Source: an uncultured SAR116 cluster alpha proteobacterium
Lineage (GTDB): Bacteria; Pseudomonadota; Alphaproteobacteria; Puniceispirillales; Marisalimonadaceae
Assembly: GCA_902517275.1 (NCBI GenBank)
Contig: CABYBQ010000007.1
Coordinates: 1-45,250, forward strand
DNA length: 45,250 nucleotides
Direction of reading: 5' to 3'
The position numbers were made by a program, and so were the translations under genes. Of this stretch, positions 1-10,048 are shown in pieces. Within the stretch, counting starts at the first letter, position 1, and every line of letters begins with the position of its first letter. The notes below the pieces were generated by a model that saw only the letters and a list, made by a program, of their open reading frames with translations, did not search any database and was not told the origin of the DNA.

Positions 1-2
1 AC

Positions 3-410
3 CTAGAAGGATTTGGTGCATGGTCTGTAAATGTAATGAATGCTGGCAATGGCAATCTGTCTGTAACATATGATGGTTTATTCAGTGGCGTTGCTATGAA
101 TGGGACTAAATTTGGAAATAATTCATCTGTTCAGTGTGTGGGTGGACTTACTACATCAAAAGGTAAATTTAATGACGAAACTGGTATATGTAAATTTCTA
201 TTTGCTAATGGTGATACTGCTTTCACAAAATATAAAGGTTCAGGTGAAGTAGGTAAGAGTGGTTCAGGAACTTTTGAGTTTATTGGAGGCACTGGCAAAT
301 ATAAATCTATATCTGGGTCAGGAACTGTTACGCGAATTACAATTCAGGCAGCAAAAAAAGGTTTTTCGCAGAGTAAGAATATATTTAAGGGTAGTTATAA
401 ACTGAATTAG
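3..410 (+). CDS. Hypothetical protein, 5'-truncated, glycine-rich beta-barrel type
   Basis: The reading frame is open from the window edge to a TAG stop, so the gene starts outside the window. The internal ATG at 36 is probably not the true start because codons 3-35 are open and the same kind of sequence continues. The visible part of about 135 residues is rich in Gly, Ser and Thr with alternating polar and hydrophobic strands. It contains the stretch IGGTGKYKSISGSGTV, which resembles repeats in small secreted beta-barrel proteins of the allene-oxide-cyclase or DUF3224 type. There are two cysteines (VQCVGG and GICKFL), consistent with an exported protein with a disulfide. I do not recognise the family firmly. 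Function unknown. Confidence 0.7.
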   Translation, partial: LEGFGAWSVNVMNAGNGNLSVTYDGLFSGVAMNGTKFGNNSSVQCVGGLTTSKGKFNDETGICKFLFANGDTAFTKYKGSGEVGKSGSGTFEFIGGTGKYKSISGSGTVTRITIQAAKKGFSQSKNIFKGSYKLN

Positions 411-442
411 ATTTAATAGTTTAGGTTTAATTTTTTAAAGAA

Positions 443-778
443 ATGGATAAAAATATGAAATTTATAGTTCTAGCGAAATATACAAAACAAGGTACTGACG
501 GTTGGCTGGATAATCCAGACGAAGACCGTCGTGCTATGGTTCGTAGTATATCAGAAAAAATTGGAGGAAAATTACTTGATATATCTTATACGCGCGGAAT
601 TTATGACGTAGTGGTAAATGTTGAAGCACCAAGTTCAGATACAATGACAGCATTGAAATTGTCAATGATTAAAACTGGAGCATTTGATGAATTAACTATC
701 TTGGAAGATATAGATCTCAATGCAATTGCAAGAAAAGGTGCTGAAATGATTGGATTATACAAGGCACCTGGAAAGTAG
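443..778 (+). CDS. GYD domain protein
   Basis: A protein of about 107-111 residues matching the GYD family (Pfam PF08734), small alpha/beta-barrel proteins of unknown function common in alphaproteobacteria. The start MKFIVLAKYTKQG and the core stretch ISYTRGIYDVVVNVEAP are typical: the family name comes from a conserved G-Y-D, here G-I-Y-D. Family members usually begin at MKF, so the ATG at 455 may be the real start rather than the one at 443. It lies 32 bases after the preceding gene on the same strand and is followed by a strong hairpin terminator, so it ends a transcription unit. No catalytic residues can be named. Confidence 0.85.
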   Translation: MDKNMKFIVLAKYTKQGTDGWLDNPDEDRRAMVRSISEKIGGKLLDISYTRGIYDVVVNVEAPSSDTMTALKLSMIKTGAFDELTILEDIDLNAIARKGAEMIGLYKAPGK

Positions 779-803
779 TAAAAACTTATTTTTTTTCGTA
801 ACA

Positions 804-830
804 AAAAGAGAGTCTTTTGGGCTCTCTTTT
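804..830 (+). terminator. Rho-independent terminator
   Basis: The arms AAAAGAGAG (804-812) and CTCTCTTTT (822-830) form a 9-bp stem around a 9-base loop, and the descending arm ends in a short T run. It sits 26 bases after the GYD gene stop and fits termination of that unit. Confidence 0.8.
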
Positions 831-943
831 ATTATTAGGGAGGAAGAAAATTACTTTGTTTAAATTTGCAAATTTTATACCTTTTATCTCATTAATTTAA
901 ATTATATATTTATGAATTGATACAAATAAGCAATACTAAAATA

Positions 944-1135
944 ATGGATAATCAAAAGTACAAATTAGAAAAATTAAAAAAAGCACAAAAAGCAAAGTCT
1001 AGCAGAGATGAGTTATTTAATTCCTATTTAGATAAAACAACTAAATTTGAAGATAAAATTGCTCTGGTTAAATTTAAACAAAAAGACAATAATTCTGTAT
1101 TTCTTTCAAGCCTTAAGACTTTGATGAAACAATAG
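944..1135 (+). CDS. Small lysine-rich hypothetical protein
   Basis: A 63-residue ORF starting MDNQKYKLEKLKKAQ. It is strongly basic and charged, with heptad-like Leu/Lys spacing in the first half that suggests a helix. An in-frame start further upstream at 917 exists, but ATG 944 gives the more natural protein. No strong ribosome binding site is visible, and I recognise no family. It lies between the GYD terminator and the truncated tRNA copy at 1174, so it is the last chromosomal ORF before the island, or a chance ORF. Codon use is like the neighbours. Confidence 0.45.
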   Translation: MDNQKYKLEKLKKAQKAKSSRDELFNSYLDKTTKFEDKIALVKFKQKDNNSVFLSSLKTLMKQ

Positions 1136-1173
1136 AAAGTATATTTCGATCTAGTAAATTCCGTTAAATAATT

Positions 1174-1237
1174 ACTTTATTAAGATTATTGGTAGCGGAG
1201 GAGGGACTTGAACCCCCGACACCCAGATTATGATTCC
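1174..1237. repeat. Left direct repeat: truncated tRNA-Met copy (attachment-site like)
   Basis: 64 bases matching 3712-3775 with two mismatches (1189 T for A; 1225 A for G). It contains the CCA end, acceptor 3' strand, T arm, variable region and anticodon loop of tRNA-Met, then diverges at 1238, so no D arm or 5' acceptor strand exists. It also includes 16 bases beyond the tRNA 3' end. It cannot be a functional tRNA. Read as the distal attachment scar of the island. Confidence 0.85.
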
Positions 1238-1425: not shown

Positions 1426-1728
1426 TTAAATTATAACTTCAAAACCTTCAAATACTGGATGACCTAGATATATATCACTATGTTGACCTGCACCTTTATG
1501 TGCTTGCCTAAAAGCATCCGATTTTGTCCAATTTACAAAATCTTGTTCTGAATTCCATTCGCTGTGGGACGCATAAAGTCTAAAGGTATCTTGTTTTTTT
1601 CCCTTTATTAAGTTGAACTTTTTAAAACCGGGCACATCGTCTAAATGAGTATCCCGTTCCTTCCAAATCTTTTCAAATTCAGTTTCACGTCCTAAAATAA
1701 TTTTAAACCTATTCATTGCTATATACAT
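1426..1728 (-). CDS. Antibiotic biosynthesis monooxygenase (ABM) domain protein, IsdG/HmuQ-like
   Basis: 100 residues from MYIAMNRFKIILGRE to the C-terminal GHPVFEGFEVII. Landmarks of the dimeric alpha/beta ABM fold are visible: VPGFKKFNLI, LYASHSEWNSEQDFVNWTKSDAFRQAHKG and the YLGHPVFEGFEV end. In alphaproteobacteria this subgroup includes heme-degrading monooxygenases of the HmuQ/HmuD kind, under iron control in Bradyrhizobium. A heme-degrading role here is an inference from similarity and from the Fur-type operator at 2324-2344 upstream of the preceding gene. It lies 77 bases downstream of that unknown gene on the same strand, so both may be on one iron-responsive transcript. Other ABM proteins act on quinones, so the substrate is not certain. 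Confidence 0.8.
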   Translation of the reverse strand: MYIAMNRFKIILGRETEFEKIWKERDTHLDDVPGFKKFNLIKGKKQDTFRLYASHSEWNSEQDFVNWTKSDAFRQAHKGAGQHSDIYLGHPVFEGFEVII

Positions 1729-1805: not shown

Positions 1806-2291
1806 TTAAACATATTTATTATTTTTAAAATCATAATTAATAATATTATTTATTTTTGGTTGTAAGTTAGAATAGTTAACTGGGTCGTTAAAAAATAATC
1901 CAACATCAGTAAAATCCTTACATATTAATTTTGAACATGAAATTGCTATATTTCTATACGTTTTATCAACCATTTTATCGATCAATTTTGTTGCCACTTC
2001 GTCTTTTTTAATTTGATAATTATACATTACTGACAATAAATCTTTTTCACTTTCTCCCAAAAAACAACAATTTGAAACTCTAAAATCAAGTTTCTTAACA
2101 CGAGATAAAACGACTGATCTCATTAAATCATCTATTGGTATCATTGTTTTTGGAATTTTATGGTTAGAGAGCAAATATTTTAAAATAGGCATTGGATTTT
2201 GAGCATAAAAAACTGCTTTAACCCATTCCCTGACACATCCAATGAAAAGACCATCAACATCATTGAGTTCTGAAATTTTAATAGAATTCAT
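1806..2291 (-). CDS. Hypothetical protein behind a Fur-type operator
   Basis: 161 residues starting MNSIKISELNDVDGLF. The frame is open further upstream to 2360, but that extension would translate the Fur-type palindrome as a run of isoleucines, so the ATG at 2289-2291, with AAGAAAGA ahead of it, is the better start. The protein has no signal peptide or membrane segment and looks alpha-helical. It contains five cysteines (CVREW, SNCCFLG, SCSKLIC) but no recognised metal motif. I cannot assign a family. Its position, directly downstream of a perfect iron-box palindrome and upstream of an IsdG/HmuQ-like gene, suggests a role in iron or heme metabolism (inference only). Confidence 0.75.
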   Translation of the reverse strand: MNSIKISELNDVDGLFIGCVREWVKAVFYAQNPMPILKYLLSNHKIPKTMIPIDDLMRSVVLSRVKKLDFRVSNCCFLGESEKDLLSVMYNYQIKKDEVATKLIDKMVDKTYRNIAISCSKLICKDFTDVGLFFNDPVNYSNLQPKINNIINYDFKNNKYV

Positions 2292-2461: not shown

Positions 2462-2860
2462 TTAGTTATTATTTATTGACTTGATTAACTTTTGCATAAC
2501 TGCTTCTGCAGTGCTAGAGAGTTTTATTTTTTCTATTTCTTTTAAATTATGTAAATCATTCCCTACAATAACTAAACCCAACATTCCCATATTACCATGT
2601 GGTTCACAATGGTATAAGAATACTCCAGATGCATCAAAAGTGATTGAGTGGAAAGCATCAACTTCTGAACTCTCTGGGAGAGAACTCATATTAGGACCTC
2701 CAAGAAACTCAACATTATGCCCCTCATTTTTGGGTAACCACTCTATAGTGTCTCCTACATCAATATAAGCAATCTCTTTACTAAATGTGTCATCTTCAGT
2801 GAATTCAATTTGTATGGTTTTAGCATTTACAGTGTTTGAAATCACTATAATAAAAAGCAA
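2462..2860 (-). CDS. Cupredoxin (pseudoazurin/plastocyanin-like blue copper protein), exported
   Basis: About 130 residues with the type 1 copper ligands of pseudoazurins: His48 in EGHNVEF, then Cys85, His88 and Met93 in HCEPHGNMGM (numbered from the TTG at 2860). A small periplasmic electron carrier is expected. The mature domain begins after an Ala-X-Ala-like site (NTVNA|KT). A tail of about 30 residues rich in Lys and Glu follows the fold and is not typical. From TTG the signal peptide would have only 13 residues and no basic start. The open frame continues upstream to a TAG with residues KRIHILVNIISL, a proper signal sequence, but without ATG, GTG or TTG. The true start is therefore probably non-standard, near 2887. 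Confidence 0.85.
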   Translation of the reverse strand: MLFIIVISNTVNAKTIQIEFTEDDTFSKEIAYIDVGDTIEWLPKNEGHNVEFLGGPNMSSLPESSEVDAFHSITFDASGVFLYHCEPHGNMGMLGLVIVGNDLHNLKEIEKIKLSSTAEAVMQKLIKSINNN

Positions 2861-3075: not shown

Positions 3076-3228
3076 ATGACCGAACAAAGAGATAATGTAG
3101 ATACTTGTTGTAAAGATACTTGTTGTGCAAATGGTTGTTGCAGTGATGGTTGTAAAACAGGAGAATGTAGCAGCAATTGTTGTAGTGACGGATGTTGTAG
3201 TGAGTCAGTTAACTGCTGCTCTGAATAA
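3076..3228 (+). CDS. 50-residue cysteine-rich protein, metallothionein-like
   Basis: A tiny protein with 14 cysteines in 50 residues (positions 11, 12, 16, 17, 21, 22, 26, 31, 35, 36, 40, 41, 47 and 48). Pairs of Cys recur at about 5-residue steps, as in CCKDTCCANGCCSDGC, separated by Gly, Ser, Asp and Asn. There is no signal peptide. AAAGGAAG lies 7 bases before ATG 3076, a good ribosome binding site, so this is the start rather than the longer upstream frame. The composition fits thiolate-cluster metal binding (Cu, Zn or Cd), but it matches no metallothionein family that I can name. A modified-peptide precursor is a less likely alternative, as no modification enzyme is nearby. It converges on the CxxC gene at 3233 with a 4-base gap. 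Confidence 0.8.
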   Translation: MTEQRDNVDTCCKDTCCANGCCSDGCKTGECSSNCCSDGCCSESVNCCSE

Positions 3229-3232
3229 GAAG

Positions 3233-3415
3233 TTATTTCTTGTTACTCTTCCAAGTGCCCCCATATTGGTAAGTATTTTCAAATAAACTTTTAATTTGTT
3301 TTAAACAATCTTTACAAAGAAATACCCAATCTTTTACTTCATCGTATCTACAACGATACATCACCTCTTTTTGTTTAGAACATTTAAAACATTCTTTTAT
3401 TCTTAGTTTGGACAT
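3233..3415 (-). CDS. CxxC zinc-ribbon-like miniprotein A
   Basis: 60 residues starting MSKLRIKECFKCSKQ. Two knuckles are visible, CFKC and CKDC, about 25 residues apart, with an extra Cys in MYRCRYDEVKDWVFLC; this fits one zinc site. The linker is aromatic and basic. It is the second of two similar small genes: the partner at 3422-3589 has the order CYIC...YKCKID...CINC. Both share the pattern CxxC-x8-YxC(K/R)-x12-16-CxxC, so they are probably paralogues. The 6-base gap suggests one transcript. No family recognised. Confidence 0.7.
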   Translation of the reverse strand: MSKLRIKECFKCSKQKEVMYRCRYDEVKDWVFLCKDCLKQIKSLFENTYQYGGTWKSNKK

Positions 3416-3421
3416 TACATA

Positions 3422-3589
3422 TTATAAGTTATTAGTATTATGATTTTCATCCAATAATTTGAAGTTTTTATTATTTAATGCTTCGAACTTGGCACAATTT
3501 ATACATACATCATAAAAGTTAAAATTTTCATCAATTTTGCACTTGTAAAACTCTTCGTGTGGAAATTTACATATGTAACATTTTTTCAT
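3422..3589 (-). CDS. CxxC zinc-ribbon-like miniprotein B
   Basis: A 55-residue ORF from the ATG at 3587-3589 to the TAA at 3422-3424. It starts MKKCYICKFPHEEFYKCKID and later has DVCINCAKFE: two CxxC knuckles plus one Cys between them, the same layout as the next gene. The tail is rich in Asn and Lys. A likely cytosolic zinc-binding miniprotein of unknown role. It lies 94 bases downstream of a 15-bp Fur-like palindrome (3683-3697), which suggests metal control. The shared cysteine pattern with its neighbour is the main support that this short frame is real. Confidence 0.65.
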   Translation of the reverse strand: MKKCYICKFPHEEFYKCKIDENFNFYDVCINCAKFEALNNKNFKLLDENHNTNNL

Positions 3590-3697: not shown

Positions 3698-3711
3698 TAT
3701 CAAATTGTATA

Positions 3712-3775
3712 ACTTTATTAAGATTAATGGTAGCGGAGGAGGGACTTGAACCCCCGACACCCGGATTATGATTCC
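3712..3775. repeat. Right direct repeat, inside and beside tRNA-Met
   Basis: Partner of 1174-1237 (62 of 64 bases identical). It overlaps tRNA-Met from the 3' CCA to the 5' strand of the anticodon stem and runs 16 bases past the tRNA end. It marks the inferred tRNA-side attachment site of the island. Confidence 0.85.
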
Positions 3776-3804
3776 GGTGCTCTAACCAGCTGAGCTACTC
3801 CGCC
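3728..3804 (-). tRNA. tRNA-Met (CAT), elongator type
   Basis: 77 bases with encoded CCA. Acceptor GGCGGAG pairs with CTCCGCT (one G-T at position 1), the D arm contains AGCTCAGCTGGTTAGAGC, the anticodon stem CCGGA/TCCGG encloses ATCATAA with anticodon CAT, and the T arm has GGGGGTTCAAGTCCC. Sequence and arms resemble alphaproteobacterial elongator tRNA-Met rather than the initiator, which lacks a paired first base. tRNA-Ile2 (lysidine-modified CAT) is less likely. The gene is the integration target of the adjacent island. Confidence 0.95.
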
Positions 3805-3867
3805 TTTCAGTAAGGTAGTTACTAAATATAAATTATTTTGCAGTCAAGTTATTACGAAGAAAAAAAC

Positions 3868-4536
3868 TTATAACGTAATAATTGTATCTCTTATTTTGTC
3901 TTCTATATTTATTTTTAGTTTGGGATAATCAACCGTTGACGAATTATTTTTTTGTTTGGTTATTGAAAATGTAAGTTTTTCAATAGCTCCTAAAGAGTTT
4001 ATAAAATTCTTATAGGTTGATTGGCTTTCTGATAATAGAACCTCTATTTTTTCTAAATTTAAGTGGTTATCTTGCATTTTATTAATAGGCTTTTCACTTT
4101 CCCAGTTTATTAGACTTGGAATAATGCCATTAAGATGAGTTTGATCTGCTAAAATGCTAGCTTTAGTGCCTGGCATAGCAAATTTCCATTTATAGTCACC
4201 TCGTGATGCTTTAAAAAAAGGTTCATAATATTTTAGGATTTTTATATCCACATTTTCAATAACATAACCAATTACTTGAGGTGATTTTCTCAATTGGGAT
4301 TGTAATTTCAGACTATCTAAATTAAACCATCTTTTAGAATTTAAATGTCCACAGTTAGGATCTATTGAAATAACTTCTAAGTAAACACTCTTACTTATCT
4401 TAACTACCCTATTATGTGTACCCATATCTCTATGGTAACCAATATTACTTAGTTTAACATTTAACTTATTTTCTACGTAAGAAGTTCCCTCATCCAAATT
4501 ATTAGCCGCTATAACAACATGATCTAATTTATGCAT
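3868..4536 (-). CDS. Glyoxalase-like domain protein (VOC superfamily)
   Basis: 222 residues starting MHKLDHVVIAANNLDEG, the standard opening of a glyoxalase/bleomycin-resistance (VOC) domain with an early metal-ligand His. The next stretch (MGTHNRVVKI, VYLEVISIDP) matches the second strand set of PF13468-type proteins, where a Glu closes the metal site. The C-terminal third is less conserved. A metal-dependent lyase, isomerase or dioxygenase activity is possible but the substrate is unknown. The start overlaps the end of mnmA by 8 bases, so translation is probably coupled and it is the last gene of the sulfur cluster. Confidence 0.8.
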   Translation of the reverse strand: MHKLDHVVIAANNLDEGTSYVENKLNVKLSNIGYHRDMGTHNRVVKISKSVYLEVISIDPNCGHLNSKRWFNLDSLKLQSQLRKSPQVIGYVIENVDIKILKYYEPFFKASRGDYKWKFAMPGTKASILADQTHLNGIIPSLINWESEKPINKMQDNHLNLEKIEVLLSESQSTYKNFINSLGAIEKLTFSITKQKNNSSTVDYPKLKINIEDKIRDTIITL

Positions 4537-5722
4537 TAATAAAATTATTCAAATCTAGCATATTTGGGGCATCTGTTATCCATCCACCACCTAAAACGTG
4601 GGAATGATCTTTAGTATTATAAAATACGGCCGCCTGCCCTATTGAAACTCCAAATTGAGGTTCATCAAAGTCTAATTCAGAAGTACCAGTTTTAAAATCA
4701 ACTTTAATTTTTCCTACAACTGGATTTGAAGTATTTCTTAATTTTACTAAAATTTTAAATTCTTTATTATGAGGTTTATCTAATATCCAATTACATTCTG
4801 TAATTTTAATTTTTTTACAAGCCAAATAATCTTTAGGGCCTACTATCACCTGTTTTTTTTTTGCATCCAGGGCAATAACATATAAGAGTGAATTATTGTC
4901 ATCAACTCCTTTTCTGCCACCAATTCCTATGCCCTTTCTTTGTCCTATAGTAAAGTCAATGATACCATTATGTTGACCCAATTTTTTTCCCTCAATATCA
5001 ACAATATCTCCAACATCGATACTTCCTGGTCTTAATTTACGAACAACATCTGCATACTTCCCATCTGGAACAAAGCATATATCTTGACTGTCTGGTTTTT
5101 CTGCGACATCGAGATTATATTTTCTTGCTACAGACCTAGTTTCTTTTTTTGTTAATGAACCTAAAGGAAATCTTAAGAACTCAAGTTGATTTTTTGTTGT
5201 TGCAAACAAAAAATATGACTGGTCTTTAGAAGAATCTATTCCCTTATACAAACTTGGGATACCTGTATGTTTTTTTCTTCTGATATAATGTCCAGTTGCC
5301 ATAGCACTCGCACCTAATTTTTTAGCCCTATCGAACATGTCTATAAACTTAACTGTTTGATTACATCTTATACAAGGAATAGGTGTTTCTCCTCGAAGGT
5401 ATGAATCTGCAAAGTCTTCCATTACTTGATCTTGAAAAAGATTTTCATAGTTTAATACATAATGTGGAATTTGAAGTTTACTTGACACTAATCTCGCATC
5501 TTTTATATCAGATCCTGCACAACATGCTCCCTTTTTTTGAAGTGCCTGACCATGATCATATAACTGCATAGTTAAACCAACAACATCAAAACCTGCTTCA
5601 ACAAGTAAAGCCGCTGTAACAGAAGAGTCAACTCCTCCAGACATGGCTACAACTACTCTGTGTTCGGAAGGATTACCCTTTAAATCCATATCTTCAATTA
5701 CTTGGTTAATGTTAATCATCAA
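4529..5722 (-). CDS. mnmA: tRNA-specific 2-thiouridylase MnmA
   Basis: 397 residues, slightly longer than the 360-380 typical of the family. The enzyme adenylates U34 of Lys, Glu and Gln tRNAs and replaces O2 with sulfur. The PP-loop is SGGVDSS (28-34). The nucleophile is the Cys in CIRCN (Cys120) and the persulfide Cys is in DSQDICFVP (Cys217); both are present. GHYIRR and the C-terminal barrel (FGVSIGQAAVFY) also match. It starts 2 bases after the ferredoxin gene (stop at 5725). Sulfur should come from a cysteine desulfurase, and a broken desulfurase gene sits two genes upstream. Two adjacent ATG codons make the start uncertain by one residue. Confidence 0.97.
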   Translation of the reverse strand: MMININQVIEDMDLKGNPSEHRVVVAMSGGVDSSVTAALLVEAGFDVVGLTMQLYDHGQALQKKGACCAGSDIKDARLVSSKLQIPHYVLNYENLFQDQVMEDFADSYLRGETPIPCIRCNQTVKFIDMFDRAKKLGASAMATGHYIRRKKHTGIPSLYKGIDSSKDQSYFLFATTKNQLEFLRFPLGSLTKKETRSVARKYNLDVAEKPDSQDICFVPDGKYADVVRKLRPGSIDVGDIVDIEGKKLGQHNGIIDFTIGQRKGIGIGGRKGVDDNNSLLYVIALDAKKKQVIVGPKDYLACKKIKITECNWILDKPHNKEFKILVKLRNTSNPVVGKIKVDFKTGTSELDFDEPQFGVSIGQAAVFYNTKDHSHVLGGGWITDAPNMLDLNNFINA

Positions 5723-5724
5723 CC

Positions 5725-6036
5725 TTACTCTTCTGGTATAGTCATTCGTAAACCGTCTAACTCATTTGATACCTCTATTTGGCATGAAAGACGCGAGGTT
5801 GATTGTAAACCCACAGCTAAATCTAACATATCTTCTTCATCAGGATTAGGAGCACCTACAATTGAGTACCAATCTTTATCAATAATCACATGACATGTAC
5901 AACAAGAGATTGAACCACCACATGTACCCTCAATTTCTAAATCATTATCTCTAGCAACTTCCATTACAGACAATCCATTTTCTGCTTCAACAGATTTTTC
6001 AGTTCCTTCTGAGTCAACAAATATAAGTTTAGGCAC
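5725..6036 (-). CDS. [2Fe-2S] ferredoxin, adrenodoxin/ISC type
   Basis: 103 residues. Cluster ligands follow the C-x5-C-x2-C spacing: Cys39, Cys45 and Cys48 in TCGGSISCCTCH, with Cys85 in SRLSCQIEVS. Cys46 is an extra cysteine next to a ligand. The acidic patch before the last ligand (NPDEEDMLDLA) is the partner-docking region of vertebrate-type ferredoxins. It lies 25 bases after the cysteine desulfurase gene and 2 bases before mnmA, so it likely supplies electrons for Fe-S assembly or thiolation (inference from context). Fdx of the ISC system is the closest known role. No isc scaffold genes are in the window. Confidence 0.93.
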   Translation of the reverse strand: MPKLIFVDSEGTEKSVEAENGLSVMEVARDNDLEIEGTCGGSISCCTCHVIIDKDWYSIVGAPNPDEEDMLDLAVGLQSTSRLSCQIEVSNELDGLRMTIPEE

Positions 6037-8806: not shown

Positions 8807-10048
8807 ATGAATAAATCTATGAATTCTGATTTTCTGAATGTTATGAATGAAAGAGGTTTTATTCATCAAATTACTGATAAAAATAATCTAGACCAAGAAT
8901 TATCTACAAATATAATGACTGGTTACATAGGATTCGATTGCACAGCACCCTCACTCCATGTGGGATCATTAATTCAAATAATGATGCTTCGATGGTTTCA
9001 AAAAACAGGGCATAAACCAATTGTTCTTATGGGTGGGGGTACGACTAAAATTGGTGATCCGTCTGGTAAAGATAGTGCTCGACCTGTTCTTTCCTCAGAA
9101 AACATAGAAATAAATCAAAATAATATTAGAACTATTTTTGAAAAATTTTTAAAATTTGGATTAAGTAAAAATGATGCAATTATGGTTAATAATTCAGAAT
9201 GGTTAGAAAAGCTTAATTATGTGTCATTTTTAAGAGATTTTGGGTCCTTTTTTTCTGTTAACAAACTTATAAATTTGGAAAGTGTTAAACAAAGATTAGA
9301 TAGAGAACAAAATTTATCTTTTCTAGAATTTAATTATTCTTTGCTTCAGGCATATGATTTTTTGCATTTGTATAAAAATTACGGTTGTAAAATACAAATG
9401 GGTGGGTCGGATCAATGGGGAAATATAGTCACTGGCTTAGACTTAATTAGAAAGAAAAATTCAAAACAAACATTTGGTTTTACTTCTCCATTATTAACTA
9501 CCAGTAGTGGTGCAAAAATGGGCAAAACAGCAAATGGCGCAGTCTGGCTAAATGTAGAGCAATTGTCTGATTGGGACTTTTGGCAATATTGGAGGAATAC
9601 TGAAGATTTGGATGTTATAAAGTTTTTAAAACTGTTTACAGAAATACCAATTACAGAGATTAATAAATTAGAGCAATTAAAAGGTGTAGAATTAAATGAT
9701 GCCAAAATAATCTTAGCAAATGAAGTTACAAAATTGTGTAGAAGTGGAGAAGCTGCTAAAAAAATTTCAACCTCTGCTTCTAATTTATTTAATAAAATCA
9801 TAGATGATGAAGGATTACCCACTGTTAATATATCAAAGCCTGAAATATCGTTTATCAATGCTTTAAAAGATTTAAATTTTCTGAAAACAAATGGAGAAGC
9901 AAGAAGGTTAATAAGAGGAAACGGTGCTAAAATTAACGATATTGTGGTAAGTGATGAAAATTATATTTTAAAAATAGATGATTTTAGAAATGGTAAGGTA
10001 AAAATTTCATCAGGGAAAAAAAGACATGGACTATTAATTTGTTCCTAG
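8807..10048 (+). CDS. tyrS: Tyrosyl-tRNA synthetase
   Basis: 413 residues, normal length. Class I signature LHVGSL (HIGH equivalent, residues 50-55), tyrosine-binding stretch YSLLQAYDFLHLYKNYGCKIQMGGSDQWGNI, and KMSKS equivalent AKMGKT. The C-terminal S4-type RNA-binding domain is visible in GEARRLIRGNGAKINDIVVSDE. It charges tRNA-Tyr. An alternative ATG lies four codons later. The stop overlaps by 4 bases with the end of the convergent AsmA-like gene. Confidence 0.97.
   Translation: MNKSMNSDFLNVMNERGFIHQITDKNNLDQELSTNIMTGYIGFDCTAPSLHVGSLIQIMMLRWFQKTGHKPIVLMGGGTTKIGDPSGKDSARPVLSSENIEINQNNIRTIFEKFLKFGLSKNDAIMVNNSEWLEKLNYVSFLRDFGSFFSVNKLINLESVKQRLDREQNLSFLEFNYSLLQAYDFLHLYKNYGCKIQMGGSDQWGNIVTGLDLIRKKNSKQTFGFTSPLLTTSSGAKMGKTANGAVWLNVEQLSDWDFWQYWRNTEDLDVIKFLKLFTEIPITEINKLEQLKGVELNDAKIILANEVTKLCRSGEAAKKISTSASNLFNKIIDDEGLPTVNISKPEISFINALKDLNFLKTNGEARRLIRGNGAKINDIVVSDENYILKIDDFRNGKVKISSGKKRHGLLICS

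Follow-up and report, generated by a model that had tools for sequence, protein, structure and literature searches.

A 50-residue protein with 14 cysteines, encoded in a 45,250-nucleotide stretch of DNA from an uncultured SAR116 alphaproteobacterium (hereafter the window), belongs to a real, conserved protein family and is probably a small, cytosolic metallothionein-like protein, more likely to bind zinc or cadmium than copper, whose job would be zinc buffering or storage together with detoxification of cadmium or excess zinc. What is new here is the family itself, a Cys-rich bacterial family without a name that matches none in Pfam, NCBIfam, PHROGs, PADLOC or PDB: the window protein retrieved no Pfam family and no NCBIfam model at E ≤ 10 and nothing in PHROGs or PADLOC, while the sole match of a PDB profile search, to a venom toxin, was a chance one. 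Full-text searches of the open-licence literature on bacterial or marine metallothioneins found no paper describing it, as far as the accessible text of those papers goes. Few types of bacterial metallothionein have been described, and how the dominant heterotrophic bacteria of the sea handle zinc is poorly known.

Translation of positions 3076–3228 on the forward strand gives MTEQRDNVDTCCKDTCCANGCCSDGCKTGECSSNCCSDGCCSESVNCCSE (50 aa), and thus bears out the 14-Cys, 50-residue protein described in the first-pass annotation. The cysteines make up 28% of the protein, more than a quarter of its residues, and occupy positions 11, 12, 16, 17, 21, 22, 26, 31, 35, 36, 40, 41, 47 and 48, in the order CCx3CCx3CCx3Cx4Cx3CCx3CCx5CC. 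The pattern reported earlier (CCxxxCCxxxCC, a single Cys, then further pairs) is therefore correct, with two single cysteines (26 and 31) set among six doublets, all of them CC. The protein contains no CxC, no His and no aromatic residue, and its net charge is about −6. An AAGGAAG ribosome-binding sequence lies about 10 bases 5' of the ATG. At the base composition of the window, the probability of finding at least 14 cysteines in 50 open codons is about 7e-11, and the runner-up open 50-codon stretches of the window, in all six frames, have 6. By eye, no signal peptide or leader is apparent, the Cys core following a short polar stretch and starting at residue 11. The protein is small, rich in conserved cysteines and devoid of aromatic residues, as metallothioneins in the broad functional sense are expected to be (few or none of the latter). 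A single-sequence AlphaFold2 model of the metal-free protein is of low confidence (pLDDT 65, pTM 0.38) and uninformative.

The earlier proposal of a metallothionein had been made dependent on homologues with conserved cysteine spacing, and these were found when searched for: the exact 14-Cys spacing is kept in 48 distinct DNA sequences, encoding 45 distinct proteins. The median dN/dS of the family is about 0.13 (407 usable pairs), indicating strong purifying selection, each Cys position shows both TGT and TGC among the 48 sequences, and several non-Cys residues inside the Cys core are conserved as well. With so many DNA versions sharing an identical spacing under purifying selection, the reading frame is not a chance one. 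The protein occurs in 20 of the 40 genomes of the window's genus, in 29 of the 136 of its order and in 17 of 32 in another alphaproteobacterial family (f12). Wider samples yielded far fewer, 4 of 289 genomes across the class and 1 of 398 across the phylum, the latter being the window's own genome; the family is thus frequent in a few marine lineages but rare outside them. Among named genomes, a scan found 51 loci, in records labelled as alpha-, beta- or gammaproteobacteria, either marine or uncultured. The versions with the exact spacing come from SAR116 and other marine alphaproteobacteria, and from genomes of marine gamma- and betaproteobacteria. Three scans of viral contigs (protein, A1 and A3), and the phage and plasmid collections, contained no relative. 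The source genome itself is a 1.2-Mb assembly in 94 contigs, 53% complete; among named relatives, SAR116 single-cell genomes are the closest.

Variants of this plan also occur. One five-residue CC unit has been naturally deleted in three loci (L023, L051 and L074), L042 encodes a 12-Cys paralogue, and a second subfamily (L067–L070) has the order CCx3CCx3CCx3Cx3Cx3CCx3CC.

Table 1. Features of the window around the 14-Cys gene, with positions counted from the first letter of the window.
Feature	Position	Strand	Basis or remark
Left direct repeat (att-like, 67 bp) of the tRNA-Met 3' end	1171..1237		64/67 identical to 3709–3775
HmuQ-type heme-degrading ABM-domain protein	1426..1728	-	NF053649, 154 bits against a cut-off of 130
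161-aa protein, no function assigned	1806..2291	-	ORF called from 2360 at first TTG; likely ATG start near 2291
Pseudoazurin-like cupredoxin	2462..2860	-	Copper-bind PF00127, E 7e-10
14-Cys metallothionein-like protein, 50 aa	3076..3228	+	Ribosome-binding site present; 14-Cys spacing invariant among homologues; purifying selection
zr60, 60-aa CxxC...CxxC (zinc-ribbon-like) protein	3233..3415	-	Convergent with the Cys-rich gene; no Pfam family above cut-off
zr55, second small CxxC protein of the same broad type	3422..3589	-	Kept beside zr60 only among close relatives
Right att-like repeat, overlapping the 3' half of tRNA-Met	3709..3775		Repeat pair 64/67
tRNA-Met(cat), insertion site of the island	3728..3804	-	ARAGORN

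The surroundings cited in the first-pass annotation (a cupredoxin, CxxC proteins and Fur-type boxes) all exist (Table 1), but two of them, the cupredoxin and the Fur-like box, are not conserved context. The window segment that holds the cupredoxin gene (2419–2965) is missing from the same island in three relatives (G034, G001 and G031), and the cupredoxin cannot therefore be counted as such. A near-perfect Fur-like box lies at 2328–2344, upstream of the gene for the 161-aa protein and about 730 bp from the Cys-rich gene; Fur control of the latter was considered and rejected, as the box adjoins another gene, on the side of hmuQ and the 161-aa reading frame. The gene for the 161-aa protein recurs beside the Cys-rich gene at several SAR116-group loci. 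No zinc gene adjoins the Cys-rich gene in the window, where HmuQ and the cupredoxin point to iron and copper; hmuQ-type genes also flank it in two distant loci (L033 and L069), the second subfamily being present at one of them. A zr60-like gene lies convergent just 3' of the Cys-rich gene in about 14 SAR116 loci (with a gap of 10–12 bp where measured), Gln-rich antisense reading frames of the Cys-rich gene having been separated from the zr60 cluster in the synteny clustering. Small CxxC...CxxC proteins (zr60, zr55, zr69 and zr73 types) occur in several copies on SAR116 islands (window 3233–3589; L026, L060, L063 and L065) and match no known family.

Elsewhere, the sole recurring metal-specific context of the family is zur/zrg, which is confined to one genus of f12: in ten genomes of this genus, a zur gene lies on the same strand, 0.1–0.7 kb downstream of the Cys-rich gene. 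The best NCBIfam model for the linked Zur-like regulator is Zur (E 3e-28, below the curated cut-off), and the gene order continues with a zrgE-type gene (DUF3299), a zrgB-type gene for an FtsX permease whose loop is rich in His, and, in the position of zrgC, an ABC-ATPase-like gene, assigned through its clustering with an ABC protein and not through a profile scan of its own. In Vibrio, ZrgABCDE is described as a Zur-regulated zinc uptake system, of which zrgE encodes a DUF3299 protein, zrgB the permease and zrgC the ATPase (PMC9817125). Does this linkage reflect a shared function? It may instead reflect island placement rather than functional pairing, since it is seen in one genus only and tmRNA 3'-end repeats accompany one member. 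A scan for Zur boxes in the upstream regions of the Cys-rich gene, zur and zrgC in the zur-linked genus revealed no shared operator and no convincing box. For comparison, Zur of marine Synechococcus is described as activating a metallothionein gene and thereby banking zinc (PMC9337993). No recurring copper gene was seen among the neighbours of the family. Most gammaproteobacterial copies lie 16–30 bp past the 3' end of glmS, and several alpha- and betaproteobacterial ones 0.25–1.7 kb past that of guaA; the neighbours thus vary among lineages, as is expected of a mobile cargo.

Among known metallothioneins, the SmtA/BmtA/NmtA/PmtA proteins (PF02069) are the most obvious comparison, being similarly short (about 50–56 aa), Cys-rich and cytosolic, with a marine example under a zinc sensor. 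According to PMC10612145, SmtA-type proteins combine His with Cys ligands and adopt a zinc-finger fold, whereas the 14-Cys protein has no His, carries CC doublets at five-residue steps and does not match the profile; judged by that profile, it is not a member of PF02069. The domain was found in none of the 40 genus genomes, most of which, including the source, are incomplete, while the S. elongatus control was positive. The earlier remark that the protein is unlike SmtA/BmtA therefore holds, and the family could fill the SmtA-type role in this genus, given the absence of PF02069 there. MymT, the mycobacterial copper metallothionein, resembles the protein in being small and in the Cys-only ligands expected of both; searches of the Pfam and NCBIfam libraries, which may lack a MymT model, gave the 14-Cys protein no match at E ≤ 10, and its family has no conserved copper context. 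A chemical likeness, for which no homology is claimed, is found in the Cd/Zn metallothioneins of Tetrahymena subfamily 7a, which are described as repeated modules with most Cys in CC or CCC clusters (PMC1808422), but which are eukaryotic, much longer and built on another module.

The same source on Tetrahymena associates CC/CCC clusters with metallothioneins that respond to and bind Cd/Zn, and their lack with those that respond to Cu (PMC1808422). A preference for Zn/Cd over Cu would follow from this precedent, the 14-Cys protein having CC and not CxC, together with the zur/zrg context and the lack of a conserved copper neighbour. The mode of action that we infer, from metal binding, metal identity and stoichiometry to cytosolic location and regulation, would run as follows. 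The protein would be unfolded when empty, and its 14 thiolates would enclose several divalent metal ions to form a metal-thiolate cluster, with perhaps 4–5 Zn(II) or Cd(II) per protein if general metallothionein chemistry applies. It would thereby serve ocean bacteria that meet a very low and patchy supply of metals, and its gene would spread as cargo of small islands inserting at tRNA-Met and similar 3' ends. The proposal of a new metallothionein class thus survives as the best reading of a real, conserved and unnamed family, but not on the strength of the cupredoxin and Fur context cited for it, which is weak.

Could the metal be copper after all? A Cu(I) metallothionein-type protein, functioning like MymT or the fungal Cu-thioneins in protection against copper, or in its supply and buffering for cupredoxins and oxidases, would make sense of the Cys-only, His-free ligands, which suit Cu(I), and of the pseudoazurin-like cupredoxin gene adjoining the gene in the window. 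Such a role is nevertheless unlikely, as the cupredoxin gene is lacking in the homologous islands of close relatives, no copper gene recurs near the family, doublets without CxC are the Cd/Zn-type pattern of Tetrahymena (PMC1808422), and zur/zrg is the recurrent metal neighbourhood. The 14 thiols per 50 residues could alternatively act as a redox buffer or scavenger (of peroxide, hypochlorous acid or electrophiles), with metal binding secondary. Surface-ocean organisms do face photo-oxidative stress, but a spacing of cysteines that is fixed across alpha-, beta- and gammaproteobacteria exceeds what bulk thiol content would need, making this improbable.

The other option named in the first-pass annotation, a precursor of a modified or disulfide-rich peptide (a RiPP, a bufferin-like or a secreted Cys-rich peptide), has lost ground and appears slightly more improbable again. 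The protein is indeed short, Cys-rich and repetitive, and the number of cysteines is even in nearly all members. MNIO enzymes (PF05114) modify Cys-rich peptides; however, this MNIO/DUF692 domain was detected in none of the 40 genus genomes (most of them, with the source, incomplete) while the controls were positive, neither a modifying enzyme nor an exporter was recognised among the recurrent neighbours scanned, the Cys core starts near the N-terminus with no leader or signal that the eye can discern, and conserved non-Cys residues are found inside it. As for a non-functional low-complexity reading frame carried passively on genomic islands, decayed copies do exist (L055/L019, with lost cysteines, and L074/L018, with an early stop), but the low dN/dS and the 14 cysteines invariant in 48 sequences largely refute it, and little credence is left to it.

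The metallothionein-like gene of the window is probably a horizontally moving cargo, as suggested by its island and the corresponding empty site, and by tRNA, tmRNA and glmS 3'-end repeats near other members. The island measures 2,538 bp between its 67-bp direct repeats. In G021 (= L179), a close relative in which the Cys-rich gene was not found, window positions 1–1237 join 3711–6000 with a single repeat, forming an exact empty site. The tRNA-Met lies beside the same VOC-like gene in 13 of the 13 genus loci checked, and carries other or tandem islands in G001, G031, G062 and G012. No recombinase was recognised among the reading frames between the window repeats, hence a helper enzyme must be assumed. 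A candidate integrase noticed by eye in the G062 island was rejected, its only match being a weak one to Phage_int_SAM_5 (E 0.012, below cut-off). The situation recalls tycheposons and other tRNA-targeted islands of marine bacteria, with cargo inserted at the 3' end of a tRNA-Met between direct repeats, and a relative that has the empty site; tycheposons, however, are reported to span 4–200 kb and to carry a tyrosine recombinase (PMC10872708), in contrast to the 2.5 kb of the window island and its lack of a recognised recombinase of its own.

Comparable arrangements surround other copies. Members beside tRNA-Arg (L063 and L065) have flanking repeats identical at 56 of 61 positions, and in L068, of the second subfamily, a perfect 62-bp direct repeat (62/62) of a tRNA-Pro 3' end, at 83–144 and 9521–9582, encloses the copy. 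Three tmRNA 3'-end repeats of L036 (4081–4155, 6566–6642 and 7469–7545), upstream of the Cys-rich gene and zur, would form a tandem integration site at ssrA, and in L056 a glmS 3'-end repeat adjoins the Cys-rich gene; around the guaA-linked copies, no convincing guaA 3'-end repeat was found. Between a gammaproteobacterial and an alphaproteobacterial locus (L041 and L061), identity is 92% in the core protein but 47% in GlmS; between L030 and L066, it is 92% in GuaA but only 74% in the 14-Cys core. Over 38 codons, this discordance is suggestive of lateral spread and not proof. Would the family then be a new type of metallothionein, unrelated to SmtA/BmtA, that moves from one class of marine Proteobacteria to another on very small islands without a recombinase, at tRNA, tmRNA and glmS 3' ends, as an exchangeable zinc-banking module for streamlined oligotrophs? 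This wider proposal is possible, and we put it forward tentatively.

The mobile-island setting adds interest to a metallothionein-like family: with the empty site marking it as probable mobile cargo, gain and loss of the Cys-rich gene can be related to metagenomic metal gradients. With half of the genomes sampled in a SAR116 genus and over half of those of f12 encoding it, and zur/zrg beside it in one genus, the family offers a concrete candidate, easy to express, for the storage of zinc or the tolerance of Cd/Zn in the open ocean.

Two further observations concern promoters and the tRNA-Met site. The sole promoter motif found, TAGTCGTAACTATT, has exact copies at the Cys-rich gene only and does not mark a metal regulon; the motif AGTCGTAACTAT, conserved in part of SAR116, was rejected as the mark of a regulon, its one-mismatch copies being at control level and its exact copies restricted to the Cys-rich gene. 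In part of SAR116 (L062 to L066, L059, L060, L055 and L030–L033), a motif AGTCGTAACTATT (or AGTCGTAAAT.TTGA), which may be an operator or an RNA element, is present near the promoter, again with exact copies at the Cys-rich gene only. Upstream of the tRNA-Met in L181 (G012) lies an island that encodes an AlpA-like regulator and a protein of 756 aa that by eye resembles a primase, which suggests that satellite-type elements use this site.
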